Shown here one piece after another: positions 705 through 10,506 of a stretch of 23,653 nt of DNA. Within the stretch, counting starts at the first letter, position 1; each line of letters begins with the position of its first letter. The notes beneath the pieces are model-generated. The model did not search any database and was not told the origin of the DNA. It saw nothing but the letters and a program-made list of their open reading frames with translations. Source of the stretch: a virus; IMG/VR virus record IMGVR_UViG_3300009027_000037, positions 1 to 23,653 of that record; one strand, 5' to 3'. The translations under genes were made by a program, and so were the position numbers.

Positions 705-1259
705 TTATCCTTGTAACAAGCTAGGTTCTGGTCTAGCCATCAAGCTTTCTTCTTGTGGAGGTTCCATAGTAGATATCTTTTCTACTATTTCTTCAGGCAA
801 AGCTCCCTGAGGTATTTGGTTAGTCTTTTTGTATTCATTTAATCTAGACTCTTGCTCGCTATAACCAGTAGCAGCATTCTCAGCGGCTTCTTCTTCTTCT
901 TCGCCCTGATAGATTACGTAGTCTATGTCTGCTCTTTCAGCCAGTGCCATAATCATGTACGCCGTAGGCTCTGCTAACAACATCATAAGATCAGGATTCC
1001 AAACACCCCTATCAAACCCTTGATAAAGAATGTTCTGTGTAATCTCCATAACAGAAATACCAGATCCTACAAGCTCTAAGATCTGTGGATAAGTTTCTTC
1101 AGAAGTTATTTTTACAAAAACAAACTCAATACCTTCACGCAGGTTAGTTATTTCAGGAGCCTTTTCAAACTCATAACGCTGCTCGGGATCGTTAGTTAAC
1201 GATTGGCCCGGAATAGATCTTTCGGCTTTTAAAATTTGGTTAACGTAGTTTGTATCCAT
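705..1259 (-). CDS. Conserved hypothetical virion-associated protein (184 aa)
   Basis: The 184-residue product starts at ATG 1259, 1 nt after the stop of the preceding gene, so it is probably translationally coupled. The centre (about residues 40-115) is a hydrophobic, probably globular helical region. It is followed by an acidic run EEEEEA (about 119-124) and a Pro/Glu-rich C-terminal tail. The tail ends in SLMARPEPSLLQG, which shares short motifs with the neighbouring 345-aa protein (SSLLQG, SLMAPEQP) and with the 322-aa protein far upstream (GLMSRP). No signal peptide or membrane segment is visible. I do not recognise a named family with certainty. Position within the ejection-protein block suggests a small internal virion protein or a chaperone for its neighbours; this is inference. 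Confidence 0.8.
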   Translation of the reverse strand: MDTNYVNQILKAERSIPGQSLTNDPEQRYEFEKAPEITNLREGIEFVFVKITSEETYPQILELVGSGISVMEITQNILYQGFDRGVWNPDLMMLLAEPTAYMIMALAERADIDYVIYQGEEEEEAAENAATGYSEQESRLNEYKKTNQIPQGALPEEIVEKISTMEPPQEESLMARPEPSLLQG

Positions 1260-1260
1260 A

Positions 1261-2298
1261 TTACACTAGACCTTGCATTCTTCTAGAATACATTCCTGCT
1301 GGTTTATATAAAGCATCATACTGAATCATAGGCATACCATAACCTACTGCTGGCATTTGAGACATTGTACCGGCTTGTCCGGGCTGTACTTCATAAGCAT
1401 TCTCTGCAACTACAATTGTTCCTCTACCGCCTCTGTAATCATACTCAGGCTGCTCTGGAGCCATAAGGCTTTGTCCAACCGCCTTCACTGCTTCTGTCCC
1501 AGCCGCCGCTAAACTACGCTCTGTGATAAGATAATCTTTACCAACATCTTCAGCTACATCACTTACTACTGAAGCAGGAATATCAGGAGCTACAAATGCT
1601 TCAGCCTGTGGAGTCATAGGCCCTTGCAACAAAGAAGAGTCAGCAGGCAACTCGCCATAAGCCCCTTCAGCTATAAAGTTAGGATCTGTTGGATCAGTAA
1701 ATACTCTAGCCATAGGATCGTCAGTAGCTTTTAGCGGCGTGTATTCGCTCTGTAGCTCTGGAGGCCCTGTAAAACCCGGAGGTATATTTTCAGGAGATCT
1801 GCCAATATCTTTCCACCAATCTGCACTTCCTATAGTAGTGTTCCAAGTTTCTACAGTTTTACCAGCCGCTACTTCTAATGCACCTCCCTGCCCAAAGATA
1901 TTTGTAGCAGCTCCTTCAACATTGATACCCGGAATTTTGTTAAGAAGTGTTTTACCTACTTCACCTGTAAAGTTTTTAACCGCACTAGTAACAGTGTTAA
2001 ACACTCTACCTGCTCCTGCGGCAAATCTAGCAGCTCCATTAACAACATGAGCAACACCTTTTACCAAAGCGTTAGTAGCAGGATTAGCAAGAGCTGCTGC
2101 TGCCCATGTTCCTACCTTTCCTAAAGTAGATGCTAGTGCACTACCAATACCCGGAAGTATAAAAGCCATAGCAATCTGACCAACAACGCCAATCTCGTTC
2201 ATAAACTTGCCAACTTTTACGGCAACTTTTTTGATGCCCTTGCCAATCTTTTTAAAGACTTTTTTTACGCCTTTAAAAACTTTACTAAAAAATCCCAT
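1261..2298 (-). CDS. Putative membrane-active ejection/internal virion protein with cationic amphipathic N-terminus (345 aa)
   Basis: Start at ATG 2298 is preceded by AGGA six bases upstream and lies 2 nt after the preceding stop. Residues 1-32 hold eleven Lys (positions 6, 9, 12, 13, 16, 17, 20, 23, 24, 28, 31) alternating with Phe, Val and Ile, and no acidic residue before Glu35. This is the pattern of an amphipathic membrane-disrupting helix. Residues 38-106 are an Ala/Gly/Val-rich hydrophobic stretch that could insert in or lie on a membrane. The C-terminal two thirds are Pro/Gly-rich and probably extended, with SSLLQG at 221-226 and SLMAPEQP at 277-284, motifs shared with the next gene's C-terminus. 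There is no signal peptide and no catalytic motif. Together with its place between two other virion-type genes this suggests a protein that helps DNA cross the host envelope. A lysis role is a less likely alternative. Confidence 0.8.
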   Translation of the reverse strand: MGFFSKVFKGVKKVFKKIGKGIKKVAVKVGKFMNEIGVVGQIAMAFILPGIGSALASTLGKVGTWAAAALANPATNALVKGVAHVVNGAARFAAGAGRVFNTVTSAVKNFTGEVGKTLLNKIPGINVEGAATNIFGQGGALEVAAGKTVETWNTTIGSADWWKDIGRSPENIPPGFTGPPELQSEYTPLKATDDPMARVFTDPTDPNFIAEGAYGELPADSSLLQGPMTPQAEAFVAPDIPASVVSDVAEDVGKDYLITERSLAAAGTEAVKAVGQSLMAPEQPEYDYRGGRGTIVVAENAYEVQPGQAGTMSQMPAVGYGMPMIQYDALYKPAGMYSRRMQGLV

Positions 2299-2300
2299 AA

Positions 2301-5300
2301 TTAATCCTCATACATCTTATCAACAGTTGCAATAAGTTTATCTACATACTCTGTGCTTCCGGCTTCTCCGGGGTCATTTGAAAGTGCAGTTGCATACAAA
2401 GTAGTTTGTCGTTGTTGTTCGTTTTGGTAGGCTGTTCGCGCATAGGTAGAGTCATCACGTAACTGCTGCCATACGTTAGCAAGTTCTTGTGTTGACAAGT
2501 TATATGCCTGTTGAGCCGCTGTAGCGTTTGCTGCATTCTCTGCGGCAGTGTTAATAGTATTAGCCTGTCTACGCCATTCAATATTAGACTGCTCTATAGC
2601 TTGAGCGTTTTGAGCATTCCATATCTCTCTTTGCTGATCCATTTGTGCATTAAACTGATCAAGCTGTGAAGTAAGTTGATTATTGAACTTCTGAACATCT
2701 ATCTCGTTTCCTGCGTTAATAGCAGCTACTCTGTTCTGTTCAGTCACATTAAACTGTGCCATAGCATTTAGTTGAGAAGCATTAAACTGTTCTATCTGTG
2801 CTGCAAGATTAGCATTGAACTGATTAATCTGAGCTTCTGTTGAAGCGTTAAACTGAGCCGCTGAATTTTGTGCTGATTGATCAGACAACAATCTTTGCTG
2901 CGCCATTTGCTGATCTAAAATAGTAGCTTGTTGTGCATTAGACAGATTAGCTATATCCATCTGTAAAAAGTTATTTGCATTTTCTATAGCTACTCTAGTT
3001 CTCTGATCAACAGTAGCAAGATCTAAAGACGCTAAAGCTGTAGCATTTTGCATAGCTGCTTGCTGCCTAGCATTAAAGTCTGTTAGCGTAATAGTCTGCA
3101 TAAACTGGCTGTTTGCTAGTTGCACTTGCTGATCTGCATTGAACTTAGTCAGATCAATATTAGCTACCATTCTAGCGTTTTCAACAGCTCTTTGCTGGTC
3201 AGCATTAAGCTGGGCAACACCCATTGACTGAGCTATCTGCGCCTGTGCCAGATTAGTTTGCATTCTTGCATTCAGGTTGGCAAGCTCTGTTTGTTGAGCA
3301 GCATTTAAGTTGTCTGAACTAGCATTGTTTAGTGCTGTAAGATTTGCAAGCCTTACTTGCTGATCAGCATCTAGGTTTGCTAATTCCATCTGCTGCTTAA
3401 ACGCTGCATTCTTAGATATAAAGTCTGCTGCTACTTGAAACTCTGCAAGCCTTGCTTGGTTCTCGGCTGTCATGTTCTCACGCTCTGTGAGATTCATAGC
3501 CTCAAGATTAGCAAGCTCCATCTGTTGTTCGTTAGATAAATTTTGAGCATTTGAAGCTTGTTGGTTCTGAGCATTTAACTCAGCAGATCTTTGGCGGTTT
3601 GCCAAGTTCTGTGTACGAATCTGCTGTGCTTGCTGTGCTGATAACAAAGCCGCATCTTGACGGAACTGGCTTTGAAGCTGCGCCATGCTCTGCGCCATCT
3701 GTGCTGTTTGGCTTGCAGAAGTTTGTTGATTTGCAAGGTTCTGTAGTCTTAACTGCATTTGAGAAGACTGCTGCTGAAGAGCTGCTTGCTGTTCGTTTGA
3801 TAAGTTCTGGGCGGCACGTTGTTGTAATGCTTGTGCATTAGATTCAGCTATAGGTAAAGATGTTTGAATAATAGCATTAAACAAAGCATCTCTAGCTACT
3901 GTAGAAACTTCCATGCCTCTTTGTGCCAAACGCTGCTCAACTATATCTACGGCTGGCCTAGCCCATGTTGGTATCTGTCCATCTTCCAAACCACCTAGAA
4001 GTGTTTCTAGTTGTGAAGATACCAAAGCTTCGTTAGGCAGGGCAGCAACAGCAGCTTGTATTTCAACAGGCTGTGTATCTACTATAGCTTCAACATTTGC
4101 AGGATCTTCAACAATAGCAGAAGCAACAGCATCAGGTAGCTCTCCCACTTCAGCAACCATAGAGGCAGCAGCACCTTTAGCGGCTGTGCCTTTGATAGCT
4201 CTAGTTTGAGCAGCTTGATAGTTAACAGTCTCTAGTATTTGAGCTTCTATGCCAGATCCAGCAGTTCCTGTAATAGCTTCTCGTTGTTGTGCTTCAATCT
4301 CAGGAGTCTGTGCAACTCTGATATCTGCTGCGGTAACTCCCGGCACAAAAGCATCAGGGCTGATAGTAAAGTCAGCAGCCTGTGCAAGTCCTGCCGTAAC
4401 GTCTCCCATTGTAGCGGCTTGCGCTCTAGAAGATATATCTTTAATTTCTTCTACAGTAATAGGAGGACGTTGTGTACCTATGGCGGGTACAGTTCTGTTT
4501 AACTCCTCTGCTAAGGCTGCTTCATATTGTGAAGCATCTATTTGATTTTTAGTTATTGCATCTGCAACACTAGCAGTAGCAGCTTGTATTTGAGTGGCTG
4601 TTACAGCGGGAGGAGGAGGTATATCAACAAATTTATTAAGTTGCTGTATAGCACTTTGAGGAGTTACACCAGCACTTATATCTACTTTAGTTACTTCAGG
4701 AGGCTGAACATAATCGGCTACATCAACAGTAGGAGCGCGATATGTACCCGGAGTTTCTGAAGTAATTCCTGTAACAACAGTCTCTGCTACTTTTTCTGTT
4801 TCTCCAGCAGAACCCAAAGCGTCCCTATACATCTGAAGACCTACATCCCTATCAATCTCAAGGGCATCAGCCACTAAACCTATATCAGCTCCTGTATCTT
4901 TTACAAACTGAGCTAACTGTTGATTTGTAGCATTAGGATTTTGTTCTTGATATCTAACAAAGTCAGCAGTTTTATCATCTGAAAGCGCATTAAATACTGT
5001 ATTAGCTCTTTCTCTGTCTATACCCATAGCATCTGCTACTTTATTTACATCAGCTCCAATTTGAGTAATGTAATTAGCAATATCTAAATTAGATGCTCCT
5101 CCTTCTCTTCCTGCAAACTGTAAAACTTGAGTAGTAAGATCAGGACTACCGCCATTACCACCATCATCACCACCATTACCACCATTACCACCATCATCAC
5201 CACCGTTACCACCACCCGGAGGAGGAGGGGTAATGTTAACAGTACCTAGATCAAGATTAGGATCAATACCAATATCTCTACCTTCAGTTTCTTCGCCGTA

Positions 5301-5351
5301 GTAAAATTCGTCAGTCCTACCGCCGATCTGATATTTTTTTCTTTTAGCCAT
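2301..5351 (-). CDS. Giant Gln/Asn/Ala-rich hendecad-repeat virion protein (1016 aa), putative ejection protein
   Basis: Start ATG 5351. Regions in order: basic N-terminus (MAKRKK); proline run then a Gly/Asn/Asp-only linker (46-68); two related helical motifs of about 36 residues (about 88-123 and 143-178, both of the form GAD-x3-VADA-x2-IDR); a Pro/Ala-rich extended part (about 200-470); a conserved-looking helical patch around 468-505; then a very long Q/N/A-rich helix (517-934) whose hydrophobic residues recur every 11 positions; and a helical C-terminus. Charge is very low in the long helix. It has no signal peptide or membrane segment. Size and position beside other large virion proteins fit a podovirus internal protein, although phage T7 gp15/gp16 similarity is not visible. 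A rod-like fibre or scaffold-type role is possible. Codon use looks like that of its neighbours. Confidence 0.85.
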   Translation of the reverse strand: MAKRKKYQIGGRTDEFYYGEETEGRDIGIDPNLDLGTVNITPPPPGGGNGGDDGGNGGNGGDDGGNGGSPDLTTQVLQFAGREGGASNLDIANYITQIGADVNKVADAMGIDRERANTVFNALSDDKTADFVRYQEQNPNATNQQLAQFVKDTGADIGLVADALEIDRDVGLQMYRDALGSAGETEKVAETVVTGITSETPGTYRAPTVDVADYVQPPEVTKVDISAGVTPQSAIQQLNKFVDIPPPPAVTATQIQAATASVADAITKNQIDASQYEAALAEELNRTVPAIGTQRPPITVEEIKDISSRAQAATMGDVTAGLAQAADFTISPDAFVPGVTAADIRVAQTPEIEAQQREAITGTAGSGIEAQILETVNYQAAQTRAIKGTAAKGAAASMVAEVGELPDAVASAIVEDPANVEAIVDTQPVEIQAAVAALPNEALVSSQLETLLGGLEDGQIPTWARPAVDIVEQRLAQRGMEVSTVARDALFNAIIQTSLPIAESNAQALQQRAAQNLSNEQQAALQQQSSQMQLRLQNLANQQTSASQTAQMAQSMAQLQSQFRQDAALLSAQQAQQIRTQNLANRQRSAELNAQNQQASNAQNLSNEQQMELANLEAMNLTERENMTAENQARLAEFQVAADFISKNAAFKQQMELANLDADQQVRLANLTALNNASSDNLNAAQQTELANLNARMQTNLAQAQIAQSMGVAQLNADQQRAVENARMVANIDLTKFNADQQVQLANSQFMQTITLTDFNARQQAAMQNATALASLDLATVDQRTRVAIENANNFLQMDIANLSNAQQATILDQQMAQQRLLSDQSAQNSAAQFNASTEAQINQFNANLAAQIEQFNASQLNAMAQFNVTEQNRVAAINAGNEIDVQKFNNQLTSQLDQFNAQMDQQREIWNAQNAQAIEQSNIEWRRQANTINTAAENAANATAAQQAYNLSTQELANVWQQLRDDSTYARTAYQNEQQRQTTLYATALSNDPGEAGSTEYVDKLIATVDKMYED
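2550..3803 (-). repeat. Array of 11-residue (33-bp) hendecad repeats inside the 1016-aa protein
   Basis: In-phase residues are L517, L539, A550, A572, L583, A594, L605, L616, M627, F638, A649, L660, L671, L682, L693, A704, L715, A726, F737, F759, A770, V781, A792 and L803, all separated by multiples of 11; exceptions at the same phase are Q528, S561 and S748. After a two-residue phase slip, the register resumes at L812 and S823. From 834 a hydrophobic residue followed by Asn recurs at exactly 11-residue spacing: F834, F845, F856, F867, I878, F889, F900, W911, (S922), I933, with Asn next in all ten. DNA repeats are degenerate; the periodicity is conserved at protein level. Confidence 0.85.
5148..5216 (-). 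repeat. Gly/Asn/Asp-only linker repeat (residues 46-68 of the 1016-aa protein)
   Basis: The DNA is a short tandem array of ACC/ACCATT/ATC-type triplets on the plus strand, encoding alternating GGN and GGDD units after four prolines. Such low-complexity triplet DNA changes length easily by slippage. At protein level it is a flexible tether between the basic N-terminus and the paired helical motifs. Confidence 0.8.
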
Positions 5352-5356
5352 CTATA

Positions 5357-5632
5357 TCACCACTTGACCTTATCAGCCCAGTAAGCCGCTGACATTTTAC
5401 CTTTAGAAATATTTTTAGCATGACGAGCCTTAAAAGATTTTCTCCTAGACTTTTCAGATGCTGACTGAGGATTTTTACCTGCACCAGAAACGCCTTGCTG
5501 ACCAAAACGTATAGTCTTAACTTGATCGCCTACTTTGGCTACAACAACATGACTCTTAGTAGGATGCTTAGGTGTACGCTTAGGTTTGTTAAACCCAGCC
5601 ACTCCAGCTCTTTCTAGTCTAGAATCTTTCAT
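5357..5632 (-). CDS. Small basic conserved phage protein (91 aa)
   Basis: ATG 5632 overlaps the holin stop in a TAATG. The product is strongly basic, with a Pro/Lys/Thr/His segment (KRTPKHPTKSHVV), a central IRFGQQGVSGAG motif and a C-terminal block with RRKSFKARH and MSAAYWADKVKW. I recognise this pattern (IRFGQQG ... SFKARHAKNI ... SPAYWADKVKW) as a small protein frequent in marine phage genomes. Its function is not known to me. The charge suggests binding to nucleic acid or to the acidic surface of another virion protein. Its place at the boundary between the lysis group and the ejection block does not decide the role. Confidence 0.85.
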   Translation of the reverse strand: MKDSRLERAGVAGFNKPKRTPKHPTKSHVVVAKVGDQVKTIRFGQQGVSGAGKNPQSASEKSRRKSFKARHAKNISKGKMSAAYWADKVKW

Positions 5633-6972: not shown

Positions 6973-9900
6973 TCAAACCACCCGCACCTTCAGGTTATTA
7001 GCAGCCAGTGCAGTTATCCTCACCTTAGTAGCCGCAGGAGCATCAAAGTCGTAATCAGTGCCTAAGATAGCTCCTTTGTTCAGGACGTTGGCATCGTAGT
7101 TAATAGATACACCGTCACTGGAAGGAACCGTAGTGCCGCTAGATAGGTTGAAGATAATGCCTAAATCTAGGTCATTAGCTAGTGTGAAGTGGTTTGCGTC
7201 AGATACAGCGTCAAGCTGCGTCTTGTTCATTTGGTTTGGATAGACCACTGTTCCTACTGTATATTCATTAACATCATCACCGTCTATTCCGACAAGAAAC
7301 ATTTTACTGCCGTCATTATTAAATGTTACTCCTTCAACGCTTGTTTCTTGAGACGATACAGAAAAATTTTGCGTATAAGATGCTGTAGATACATCAAAAC
7401 CCGTAGTTAATGTATACTCGTTTACATCGTCTCCTCCTCCGCCACAGATAAACATTTTAGTCCCATCTGCATTAAACGCGATTCCAGATGGTGCTGTTTC
7501 TTGTGATGCGACTGAAAAGTTTTGTGAATAAGAAGCTGTTGAAACGTCAAAACCTGTAGTCAATGTATATTCATTAACGTCATCTCCAACATTTCCCACA
7601 ATAAACATTTTAGTTCCATCATTATTAAATGTTATTCCTTGAGGAGCTGTTTCCTGCGATGCGACTGAGAAATTTTGTGAGTAACTTGCAGTTGAAACAT
7701 CAAAGCCAGTAGAAAGTGTGTATTCATTTACATCATCACCGTCTATTCCGACAACAAACATCTTTGTTCCGTCATTATTAAATGCTAAACCTCGTGCATC
7801 TGTCTCTTGGCTATAAACACTAAAAAATTGGGAAAAACTTGCTGTAGAAACATCAAAGCCAGTTGTTAATGTATACTCCTGTACCTTTCCCCCAAATGTG
7901 CCAATTACGAACATTTTTGTGCCGTCAGTATTAAATCGGACATCTCTTGGGTCTGTCTCTTGCGAGCTAACGTCAAAACTATCCACAAATGAAGCAGTAG
8001 AAATATCGTATGCGTTGTTTACTCCTGATGCTTCCATAGCCTCCTGCAAAGCATTCAACTCTGTGTTGGTAGTCGCGTTAGTCCAAGTAGTAGACGCATA
8101 AGTACCGTTAGAGTTGTACTGCCAAGTGCCTGAGTTGTTACGAACAATAGAACGTATGCCGTCAGTGTTATGGGCAATCTTCCAAGTAGACCTATCGTCT
8201 GTTGATATACAGTAGAAGATACTTCCATCACCAGCAGCTTCATCTGCGGTCATAGAGTTAATGTCAGTCCAGTAGGTAGAGTCTGTAGAGGTTGTGGTGT
8301 GGACTGCGTGGTAGCCAGTCGGAATAGCTGTTGAGCCTAATGTGTATTCATTTACCTCTATTCCATTAGTGCCAACAATAAACATTTTGGTGCCGTCAGA
8401 GTTAAAGGCTATTCCTGTTGGCTCTGTTTCTTGTGCTGAGACCGAAAAATTCTGAGAGTATGAAGCTGTGGAAACATCAAAGCCGGTTGAAAGTGTATAT
8501 TCATTAACATCATCTCCTGACGTTCCTGTAATAAACATCTTAGTGCCGTCAGTATTGAAGGCCATTCCTTCCGGAACTGATTCTTGTGATGAAACTGAAA
8601 AGTTTTGAGAATAACTAGCAGTAGAAACATCAAACCCGCTGGATAATGTATATTCATTAACATCCGCACCATTGCTACCGAGCATAAACATTTTGGTGCC
8701 GTCAGAGTTAAAGGCTATGCTTCTTGGATTGGTATCTTGCGAACTAACAGAAAAGTTTTGACTATAGCTTGCTGTTGAAACGTCAAAGCCAGTAGTTAAA
8801 TTATATTCGTTTACGTCATCGCCTCCGCTACCAACGACAAACATCTTGGTGCCATCGGTATTAAAAACCACTCCGTGTGGGTTTGTTTCTTGTGATGACA
8901 CTGAAAAGTTTTGGGAATAGCTAGCAGTGGAAACATCAAAACCAGTAGTTAAATTATACTCATTTACATCGTCTCCCGACTGCCCAGTAATAAACATCTT
9001 TGTTCCATCGGTGTTAAAGGTTACTCCTAGCGGGGATGCCTCTTGCGCTGAAACTGAAAAGTTTTGGGAAAACGATGCCGTAGATACATCAAACTGACCC
9101 GTTGTTATGCCACTCAACTCCAAGTCACCATCAGTCGTGTTAAACACAACGCCATACATCTCCCAAGAGCCTGAAGCTACTTGAGCGTATGAAGTGGGTG
9201 CAGTAGTTTGAGATACAGCGCCAGCGGTAGATGTTAGAACAAACGCACCACTGTTAGCTTCAATGGTCTTGCCTACGTCAGCAGATGCAAATGAGCCTGT
9301 GCCTAGAGAAAAGCTGCCATAAGGCAATGAATACTGAAAGACAGTATTGTTTGCTCCACCAGCAATATAAAGATTTCCATCAGAAGTAATGTACATTCCA
9401 TTTGGCTGACTATCTTGAGAAGCCAAACTAAATGACTTGGAATCATAGCTTGCTGTGCTTATGTCATATGCCGTAGACAAGCTGTATTGATACAGAGAGT
9501 CATTAGTGTTATCAGCTATAATCATTACAGAGCCATTTGCTAAAAATGCTAGATTTTTTGGCGAAGTTGCTTCAGACGGGTCATAAAAAGTTTCATAAGA
9601 CGCTGTGCTTACATCATACGCAGTAGATAATGTATATTGATAAAAAGTATTATTAGTAAAACCTACGATGTACATTTTTGTTCCATCATCATTCATGTGA
9701 ACAAAAGTCGGTTGTGTTTCTTGGCTATTTACATTAAAACTTTTTGACTCATAAGATGCTGTAGATATATCCCAAGCAGTTGATAAGGCATATTGAAAAA
9801 CAGTATCGTTCCCATATCCAAGAACATACATTTTTGTTCCATCAGGCTTAAAAAACAAACCGCTTGGAACGGTGTTTCCTTCTGGCGTTACGCTAAAACT

Positions 9901-10506
9901 TACAGAATCATACGTTGCTGTAGAAACGTCATAAGCAGTAGATAGTGTGTACTGCAAAACCGCATCATTTTGATAGCCTACAAGATACATTTTTGTGCCA
10001 TCATCTTTTAAGTAAATACCTTGCAAACCATTCTCTGTTGATGCTACAGAAACACTTTTATTTGAATAGCTTGTATTTGATGTGTCTGGAACAAAATCCA
10101 AAGTAGTCGCAGGAGCAGAGTCTAAACGGGTGTAGTTCTCTGACGTTGAATTAACATCCCACGCATTATTGCTTACACCTGACTGAGCCACTTCTTTAGT
10201 CACAGATACTACGGGCGTAGCAATACTGCTAGACAAAGTAATAGTAGCCACTTCATCCTGTGCGAATGTCTTGGTAAGAGTGCCTGAAGTTACTGAGATG
10301 TTGTCTAGTTGCGTTTGTAAATTAGACGTAACACCATCCACATAATTTAATTCTGCTGTGGTTGCTATAACACCATCAAGGATGTTAAGTTCAGCAGTAG
10401 TTGCGGTAACCCCATCAAGAATATTTAATTCTGTTCCTGTAGCAGTAACACCGTCTAGAGCATTAATTGTAGCTGCGCTATCTGCTATATCTCTTGCTTT
10501 ACTCAT
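6973..10506 (-). CDS. Tail fibre/receptor-binding protein with 15 propeller-like repeats (1177 aa)
   Basis: Start ATG 10506 is preceded by GGGAGC at 6 bases. Residues 14-60 are four 13-residue repeats of the ELNILDGV type, a motif common in marine phage fibres. Residues about 143-398, 472-724 and 833-1086 are three arrays of five repeats each. The repeat consensus (about 51 residues) is FDVSTASYSQNFSVSSQET, a short variable part, FNTDGTKMFIVG and GDDVNEYTLTTG. Such repeats resemble beta-propeller blades (DGTKMF / NEYTLS). Two unrelated linkers separate the arrays (399-471, 725-832), and a small C-terminal domain follows (1087-1177). No signal peptide, membrane segment or enzyme motif is visible. 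A host-surface or glycan-binding fibre is the likely role. The downstream 70-aa ORF lies in frame after the TGA stop. Confidence 0.85.
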   Translation of the reverse strand: MSKARDIADSAATINALDGVTATGTELNILDGVTATTAELNILDGVIATTAELNYVDGVTSNLQTQLDNISVTSGTLTKTFAQDEVATITLSSSIATPVVSVTKEVAQSGVSNNAWDVNSTSENYTRLDSAPATTLDFVPDTSNTSYSNKSVSVASTENGLQGIYLKDDGTKMYLVGYQNDAVLQYTLSTAYDVSTATYDSVSFSVTPEGNTVPSGLFFKPDGTKMYVLGYGNDTVFQYALSTAWDISTASYESKSFNVNSQETQPTFVHMNDDGTKMYIVGFTNNTFYQYTLSTAYDVSTASYETFYDPSEATSPKNLAFLANGSVMIIADNTNDSLYQYSLSTAYDISTASYDSKSFSLASQDSQPNGMYITSDGNLYIAGGANNTVFQYSLPYGSFSLGTGSFASADVGKTIEANSGAFVLTSTAGAVSQTTAPTSYAQVASGSWEMYGVVFNTTDGDLELSGITTGQFDVSTASFSQNFSVSAQEASPLGVTFNTDGTKMFITGQSGDDVNEYNLTTGFDVSTASYSQNFSVSSQETNPHGVVFNTDGTKMFVVGSGGDDVNEYNLTTGFDVSTASYSQNFSVSSQDTNPRSIAFNSDGTKMFMLGSNGADVNEYTLSSGFDVSTASYSQNFSVSSQESVPEGMAFNTDGTKMFITGTSGDDVNEYTLSTGFDVSTASYSQNFSVSAQETEPTGIAFNSDGTKMFIVGTNGIEVNEYTLGSTAIPTGYHAVHTTTSTDSTYWTDINSMTADEAAGDGSIFYCISTDDRSTWKIAHNTDGIRSIVRNNSGTWQYNSNGTYASTTWTNATTNTELNALQEAMEASGVNNAYDISTASFVDSFDVSSQETDPRDVRFNTDGTKMFVIGTFGGKVQEYTLTTGFDVSTASFSQFFSVYSQETDARGLAFNNDGTKMFVVGIDGDDVNEYTLSTGFDVSTASYSQNFSVASQETAPQGITFNNDGTKMFIVGNVGDDVNEYTLTTGFDVSTASYSQNFSVASQETAPSGIAFNADGTKMFICGGGGDDVNEYTLTTGFDVSTASYTQNFSVSSQETSVEGVTFNNDGSKMFLVGIDGDDVNEYTVGTVVYPNQMNKTQLDAVSDANHFTLANDLDLGIIFNLSSGTTVPSSDGVSINYDANVLNKGAILGTDYDFDAPAATKVRITALAANNLKVRVV
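7249..8013 (-). repeat. Third array of five 51-residue (153-bp) propeller-like repeats
   Basis: Encodes fibre residues 832-1086. The motif (F/Y)D(V/I)STAS recurs at residues 833, 884, 935, 986 and 1037, exactly 51 apart, each followed by a DGTKMF (or DGSKMF) strand and an EYT strand. DNA copies are clearly related but not identical. Confidence 0.85.
8335..9093 (-). repeat. Second array of five 51-residue (153-bp) propeller-like repeats
   Basis: Encodes fibre residues 472-724. FDVSTAS recurs at residues 472, 523, 574, 625 and 676, exactly 51 apart. All five copies carry DGTKMF and VNEY motifs. Confidence 0.85.
9313..10080 (-). repeat. First, diverged array of five propeller-like repeats
   Basis: Encodes fibre residues about 143-398. 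The repeats are less regular (motif YDVSTA/WDISTA/YDISTA at 192, 245, 297 and 347; spacing 50-53). They carry DDGTKMY and QYTLSTA instead of DGTKMF and NEYTLTTG, so this array diverged from the other two or has a separate origin. Confidence 0.75.
10327..10467 (-). repeat. Four 39-bp ELNILDGV repeats at the fibre N-terminus
   Basis: Residues 14-60 of the 1177-aa fibre contain four 13-residue units (core LNILDGVTATTAE). The same unit occurs several times in the 1077-aa fibre (about 12717-13049), with visible DNA similarity. Confidence 0.85.

Follow-up and report, generated by a model that had tools for sequence, protein, structure and literature searches.

Length-locked hendecad helix arrays in a probable ejection-cassette protein of HMO-2011-type podoviruses

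How short-tailed phages pass their DNA across the bacterial envelope has been detailed for a few systems only. What role an uninterrupted array of 11-residue repeats might play in this process is the question raised by a gene of a podovirus of the HMO-2011 type, a group reported to be dominant and widespread in the ocean (PMC9038755). The stretch of DNA analysed here, hereafter the window, is a virus record 23,653 bases long, a contig of such a podovirus. Its capsid protein is related to those of HMO-2011 and of HTVC103P, HTVC104P and HTVC115P (57.5% identity to Pelagibacter phage HTVC115P, 42.9% to HMO-2011), and its portal and adaptor match SU10-type families. The gene of interest (2301..5351, minus strand, ATG start) encodes a protein of 1016 residues, hereafter the hendecad protein, which is the homologue of HMO-2011 gene 25 and lies in the same gene order. 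Relatives were found in 26 phage records, including pelagiphages, roseophages, HMO-2011, CHOED, MQM1, Slicky01, phiM6 and Rhizobium phages, on 14 genome contigs and, by profile search, in at least 566 stretches of IMG/VR; one 52-kb contig (L002) carries the protein of the window unchanged. Profile searches of Pfam, PHROG, NCBIfam and the PDB returned no match, and Foldseek found nothing below an E-value of 0.001 in the PDB. In BFVD, Foldseek recovered only apparent members of the same family, followed by a second tier rich in tape-measure proteins at E-values above 0.001, and a consensus-like hendecad peptide used as a probe matched this family exclusively.

The architecture of the protein is defined by two blocks of invariant or near-invariant columns, one on the N-terminal side of the array (residues 440-505, IPTWARPAV...RGM..S..ALFNAI...LPIA; 3837..4034, minus strand) and one on its C-terminal side (residues 912-985, N..N..AIEQSN..WRRQ...W..LRD; 2397..2618, minus strand), between which lie 37 hendecads (residues 505-911). 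Further upstream, AlphaFold2 (block means 83-94) and the sequence delineate a helical domain of two similar halves preceding the array (residues 72-180; 4812..5138, minus strand), which is not conserved in short relatives and which in one relative weakly matches Sigma70_r4_2. The only clear tandem repeat of the gene at the DNA level is a Gly/Asn/Asp codon run (GGNGGDDGGNGG; 5147-5216, minus strand).

The cyclic profile, the Asn ladder and the length test described below concur in an unbroken 11-residue register from residue 504 to 942 (2526..3842, minus strand). When an 11-state cyclic profile is trained on the family with slips permitted, residues ~504-942 come out as a single register with zero slips, and Asn occupies one fixed hendecad position in 28 of 40 units (binomial P 1.1e-15). 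Identity autocorrelation reaches 0.24, 0.24, 0.20 and 0.25 at lags 11, 22, 33 and 44, against about 0.1 elsewhere. The excess of spectral power at period 11 on which the initial annotation staked its proposal is present, being exceeded by only 14 of 2000 shuffles, and the power of the 11/4 harmonic lies above all 2000. Charged residues are few (63 of 450), and glycine and proline together make up 0.5% of the array. The last ten hendecads (residues 802-911; 2619..2948, minus strand) differ in type, with Phe preceding Asn: position 10 is Phe at a frequency of 0.52, compared with Ala at 0.36 in the remainder. One earlier misreading can be corrected. That 24 of the 27 positions from L517 to L803 are hydrophobic or Ala (the exceptions being Q528, S561 and S748), and that Asn follows all ten positions from 834 to 933 (S922 being one of the ten), had been correctly described; the two-residue slip placed between these two series is an artefact, because the tracking had passed from the Leu after Asn (to 803) to the Phe before Asn (from 834), while the Asn position runs straight through. 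We consider the continuity of the 11-residue helix array to be established almost beyond doubt. A weak relative of the Phe-Asn part (32%, 6e-6) was also noticed on a 2.6-Mb bacterial chromosome contig of Sphingomonas baiyangensis, possibly in a prophage.

The strictness of this register becomes apparent when relatives are compared. The distance from the conserved block before the array to the one after it is a multiple of 11 residues in 106 of 107 relatives, so that the 11-residue spacing proposed from a single sequence is kept in homologues. It ranges from 12 to 77 hendecads in 20 distinct lengths, and the sole exception (L110) lacks 4 residues of a full 20 hendecads. Two control lengths, start codon to first block and second block to stop codon, spread over all eleven residues modulo 11. 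Mapped onto a tree built from the flanking regions, array length requires a minimum of 32 changes; starred branches make five or more independent changes unavoidable for length 47 and three or more for length 77, although mosaic exchange of arrays could lie behind some of them. Above 41 hendecads the only lengths are 47, 57, 67 and 77, and long arrays are self-similar at lags of 5, 10, 20 and 30 hendecads. In three 77-hendecad arrays (L085, L098 and L080) a 110-residue super-repeat with a 55-residue sub-period is observed, and total lengths step by ten hendecads.

Recent tandem duplication of DNA was rejected as their source, since TRF detects no tandem repeat apart from the Gly/Asn/Asp codon run. 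Unequal recombination between repeats, with its own steps of 33 bases, could partly generate lengths in whole units; however, the lack of any in-between length means that selection is still needed. The dN/dS ratio is 0.03-0.07 in the array versus 0.25-0.57 in residues 70-430, with synonymous sites saturated in some comparisons, and ratios this low mark the array as strongly constrained by purifying selection. We are confident, to near certainty, that array length is locked to whole units under selection. As straight helices, 12, 37 and 77 hendecads would measure ~20, ~61 and ~127 nm, and the match of about 62 nm to a podovirus head diameter, pointed out in the initial annotation, is probably a coincidence given this range. 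A head-size ruler was rejected: the number of hendecads varies about twofold, from 13 to 29, among isolates of similar genome size, and reaches 77 in metagenomic contigs of ~50 kb.

The array is alpha-helical, as opposite charges pair at i+3 and i+4. Such pairs are far in excess of what position-preserving shuffles yield (859 against 193 pairs at i+3, z 29; 929 against 369 at i+4, z 18); with one sequence per length class, z is still 9.4 at both spacings. AlphaFold2 models of the array are all-helical and strand-free, at low confidence (pLDDT 60.7, pTM 0.27). With its unbroken register and helical residue pairing, the array thus belongs among hendecad alpha-helices. A beta-solenoid with an Asn ladder was rejected on account of the pairing at i+3/i+4, which is weak at i+2, the near absence of Gly and Pro, and the strand-free models. 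Alpha/beta coiled coils were also rejected, these being known for insertions or repeats of 6 and 9 residues and not of 11 (PMC4786415).

Which surfaces this helix offers to its partners is revealed by the period of its hydrophobicity. Among 106 arrays, the peak falls at 2.75-2.76 residues (11/4) in 93 and at 2.20-2.21 residues (11/5) in 13. None peaks at 3.67 residues, where power is at or below random, whereas the tape-measure array of TP901-1 submitted to the same test peaks there with a power of 44.5. The helix consequently lacks one dominant hydrophobic face, a result that speaks against a simple coiled coil with one stripe as well as against a lipid-binding array. In agreement, the amplitude of the second helical harmonic is 0.71, compared with 0.21 for the first. 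On a wheel drawn at 11/3 with Asn set to 0 degrees, charged residues lie at 33 and 65, Ala/Leu at 98, Gln at 131, Leu/Met/Ile at 164, Gln/Ser at 196, Gln at 229, Ala at 262 (replaced by Phe in the last ten hendecads), Ala/Asn at 295 and Ala/Met/Val at 327 degrees. Two hydrophobic stripes thus separate a narrow amide face, with Gln/Ser/Asn at 196 and 229 degrees, from the charged face opposite. A helix of this design can touch two neighbours at once but is ill suited to lipid binding or to a coil of two or three strands; we lean moderately toward two-sided lateral packing of the array helices.

These patterns weigh on two alternatives. An amphipathic lipid-binding array of the apolipoprotein, synuclein or perilipin kind, favoured at first sight by the 11-residue period and offered as such in the initial annotation, should display a hydrophobic moment at 3.67 residues; as 0 of 106 arrays do, we regard it as extremely improbable. 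The other proposal of that annotation, a long hendecad coiled coil, fares better: a long alpha-helix is upheld by the lengths, the charge pairing and the low-confidence models, but not a simple one-stripe coil. Asn layers are known in trimeric fibre stalks. Together with the position of the gene after tail-fibre genes, these would suit a long parallel tail or head fibre in which hendecad helices coil as a trimer around such layers. A coiled coil with one core should nevertheless peak at 3.67 residues, as the TP901-1 control does and none of the arrays does, and the nearest conserved neighbours of the gene are the ejection genes downstream, not the fibres. A fibre is in our judgement quite unlikely.

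Tail-fibre genes precede the hendecad gene in the window and in relatives, and lysis genes border it as well. On the downstream side, where 92 relatives have sufficient DNA, nearly all keep the order of a cassette: a hydrophobic protein, roughly 260-500 residues long (short or absent in some), proteins of about 150-240 and about 260-1040 residues and finally a very large one. In the window, these correspond on the minus strand to a gene for 345 residues with a Lys-rich amphipathic start followed by a hydrophobic stretch (1261..2298), of a size found in most relatives, although the whole protein finds no relative among phage records; a gene for 184 residues (705..1259), with a counterpart of about 150-240 residues in nearly all of them; and a gene cut by the contig end (1..699), placed by the gene order of relatives and 644 residues long in the 52-kb contig. 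There, it is followed by a gp16-like internal virion protein of 815 or more residues, which matches 'internal virion protein with endolysin domain' (E 4.6e-12); in HTVC104P the last cassette gene contains a Phage_lysozyme domain. The hendecad gene therefore stands in an ejection cassette with a gp16-like protein, a layout that is the one of podovirus ejection genes (PMC8954989). We found no virion proteomics of the HMO-2011-type group in the literature, and the standing of a virion protein, assumed at the outset, would follow from gene order. The conserved downstream cassette supports the ejection role suggested initially, and we judge it likely, with good confidence, that the hendecad protein is an ejection-cassette protein.

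Other features of the neighbourhood deserve mention. Just upstream (5357-5632, minus strand) lies a 91-residue ORF that matches phrog_7595, of unknown function, at 6e-40; its match to phrog_220, 'minor head protein and DNA pilot', is weak (3e-5). The large protein of 1177 residues encoded at 6973-10506 (minus strand) includes a Kelch-like stretch (residues 499-712, E 9e-12, below Pfam's cut-off) and is probably a tail or receptor-binding protein. In HTVC115P (L027, 5774-6223), a gene annotated as toxin-activating lysine-acyltransferase lies directly 3' of the hendecad gene.

The closest working analogue is protein H of phiX174, whose tube (PDB 4JPP) is made of ten helices of hendecads and heptads, is 170 A long, and has Asn, Gln or Arg at 18 of 23 inward positions (PMC7354561). 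Both proteins have a Gln-rich hendecad helix with a two-sided pattern and no dominant peak at 3.67 residues; the amide-lined lumen of H parallels the amide face of the array, and its role in DNA passage the ejection cassette. The wheel is compatible with a ring of parallel helices around an amide/guanidinium lumen. A single shift aligns the hendecad profile of H with the array for hydrophobicity, charge and amide (0.71, 0.63 and 0.51), a weak fit over three hendecads only, and places Gln 1 and Gln 8 of H on the amide positions of the array. The differences are equally clear: phiX174 belongs to a different virus realm, H has three hendecads followed by heptads over 121 residues where the arrays have 12-77 hendecads and an Asn ladder, and H forms a known tube, whereas that of the array would be a putative one. 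Hhalign detected no sequence kinship with H (E 0.39, 14 columns), nor did PDB searches with the hendecad protein return an H entry; hence, the protein may work like H but cannot be called an H. The initial annotation knew of no ejection protein described in hendecad terms, which overlooked the three hendecads and the amide/guanidinium-lined lumen of H (PMC7354561), as well as the 11-residue units of some siphophage tape-measure proteins (PMC5099701).

We propose that the ejection cassette of HMO-2011-type podoviruses and related phages begins with the hendecad protein. As gene order suggests, this protein would be packaged inside the head and leave it together with the hydrophobic protein and the gp16-like, murein-cutting protein. 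The expelled rods would then pack side by side, their two stripes contacting two neighbours, into a parallel alpha-helical tube in the manner of H. The amide faces would line its bore and the charged faces would look outward, letting DNA pass without sticking. The 11-residue lock would arise because any shift of helix phase would break both interfaces at once. For an ejection-apparatus rod that packs into such a tube, the chances are in our view slightly short of even. Against the tube stands the Phe of the last ten hendecads, which at 262 degrees adjoins the supposed bore, as do the tail-fibre and lysis genes next to the hendecad gene and the twofold spread in hendecad number among isolates of similar genome size. 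Its main difficulty is length: from ~61 nm (37 hendecads) to ~127 nm (77), straight helices are longer than a periplasm, and the longest arrays exceed a head, that of the relative MQM1 being 70.6 nm (PMC10410586).

Excess length is explained if the protein is instead an internal organiser or spacer of the ejection cassette, its helices bundled or folded back in the head core, like T7 core proteins prior to ejection, and the array serving as a stacking surface for other ejection proteins. The cassette evidence applies equally, and the lengths of 47, 57, 67 and 77 with lags of 5, 10, 20 and 30 are as paired folding of 55-residue helices would give. The scarce Gly and Pro form no regularly placed turns, however, and the hendecad phase is continuous, without loops; this arrangement strikes us as rather unlikely. 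Resemblance to T7 gp15, P22 gp20 and Sf6 gp12 extends to a cassette position shared with a large gp16-like protein, a mostly helical nature and big size differences among relatives, with no hendecad array described in the portions of the literature drawn on here (PMC8954989, PMC4755594); the hendecad protein finds no PDB match, whether by sequence or by fold.

A tape-measure-like protein, the podovirus counterpart of the siphophage 11-mers with its hydrophobic part split into the next gene, was also considered. The tape-measure proteins of TP901-1 and p2 contain long helical arrays of 11-residue units and also serve DNA transit into the cell (PMC5099701), the 345-residue cassette protein has weak tape-measure profile matches (best E 0.0012), and the second Foldseek tier points the same way. 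The siphophage arrays, however, mix units of 11 and 18 residues, marked by Trp/Phe, with one hydrophobic face. The TP901-1 array is Trp/Gly-rich and single-faced, the hendecad array Gln/Asn/Ala-rich and two-striped; profile comparison of the array with TP901-1-type tape-measure proteins gave no match, and podoviruses lack the long tail that such a protein would measure. We thus hold this possibility to be very unlikely.

If the rods do form amide-lined tubes, they might represent a DNA conduit of a class new among phages, a parallel tube of two-striped helices with whole-hendecad length, preferred steps of ten, ~20-127 nm at similar genome size and rings of Gln, Ser and Asn, a proposition that we advance as doubtful at present. 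Nature has in any case provided a series in which one array occurs at 20 lengths, each locked to 11 residues, and how tube length relates to the envelope and to DNA delivery is thereby testable. The same family supplies tube design with many natural examples of two-striped hendecads, and would bear on whether amide-lined helical tubes for DNA passage arose more than once.
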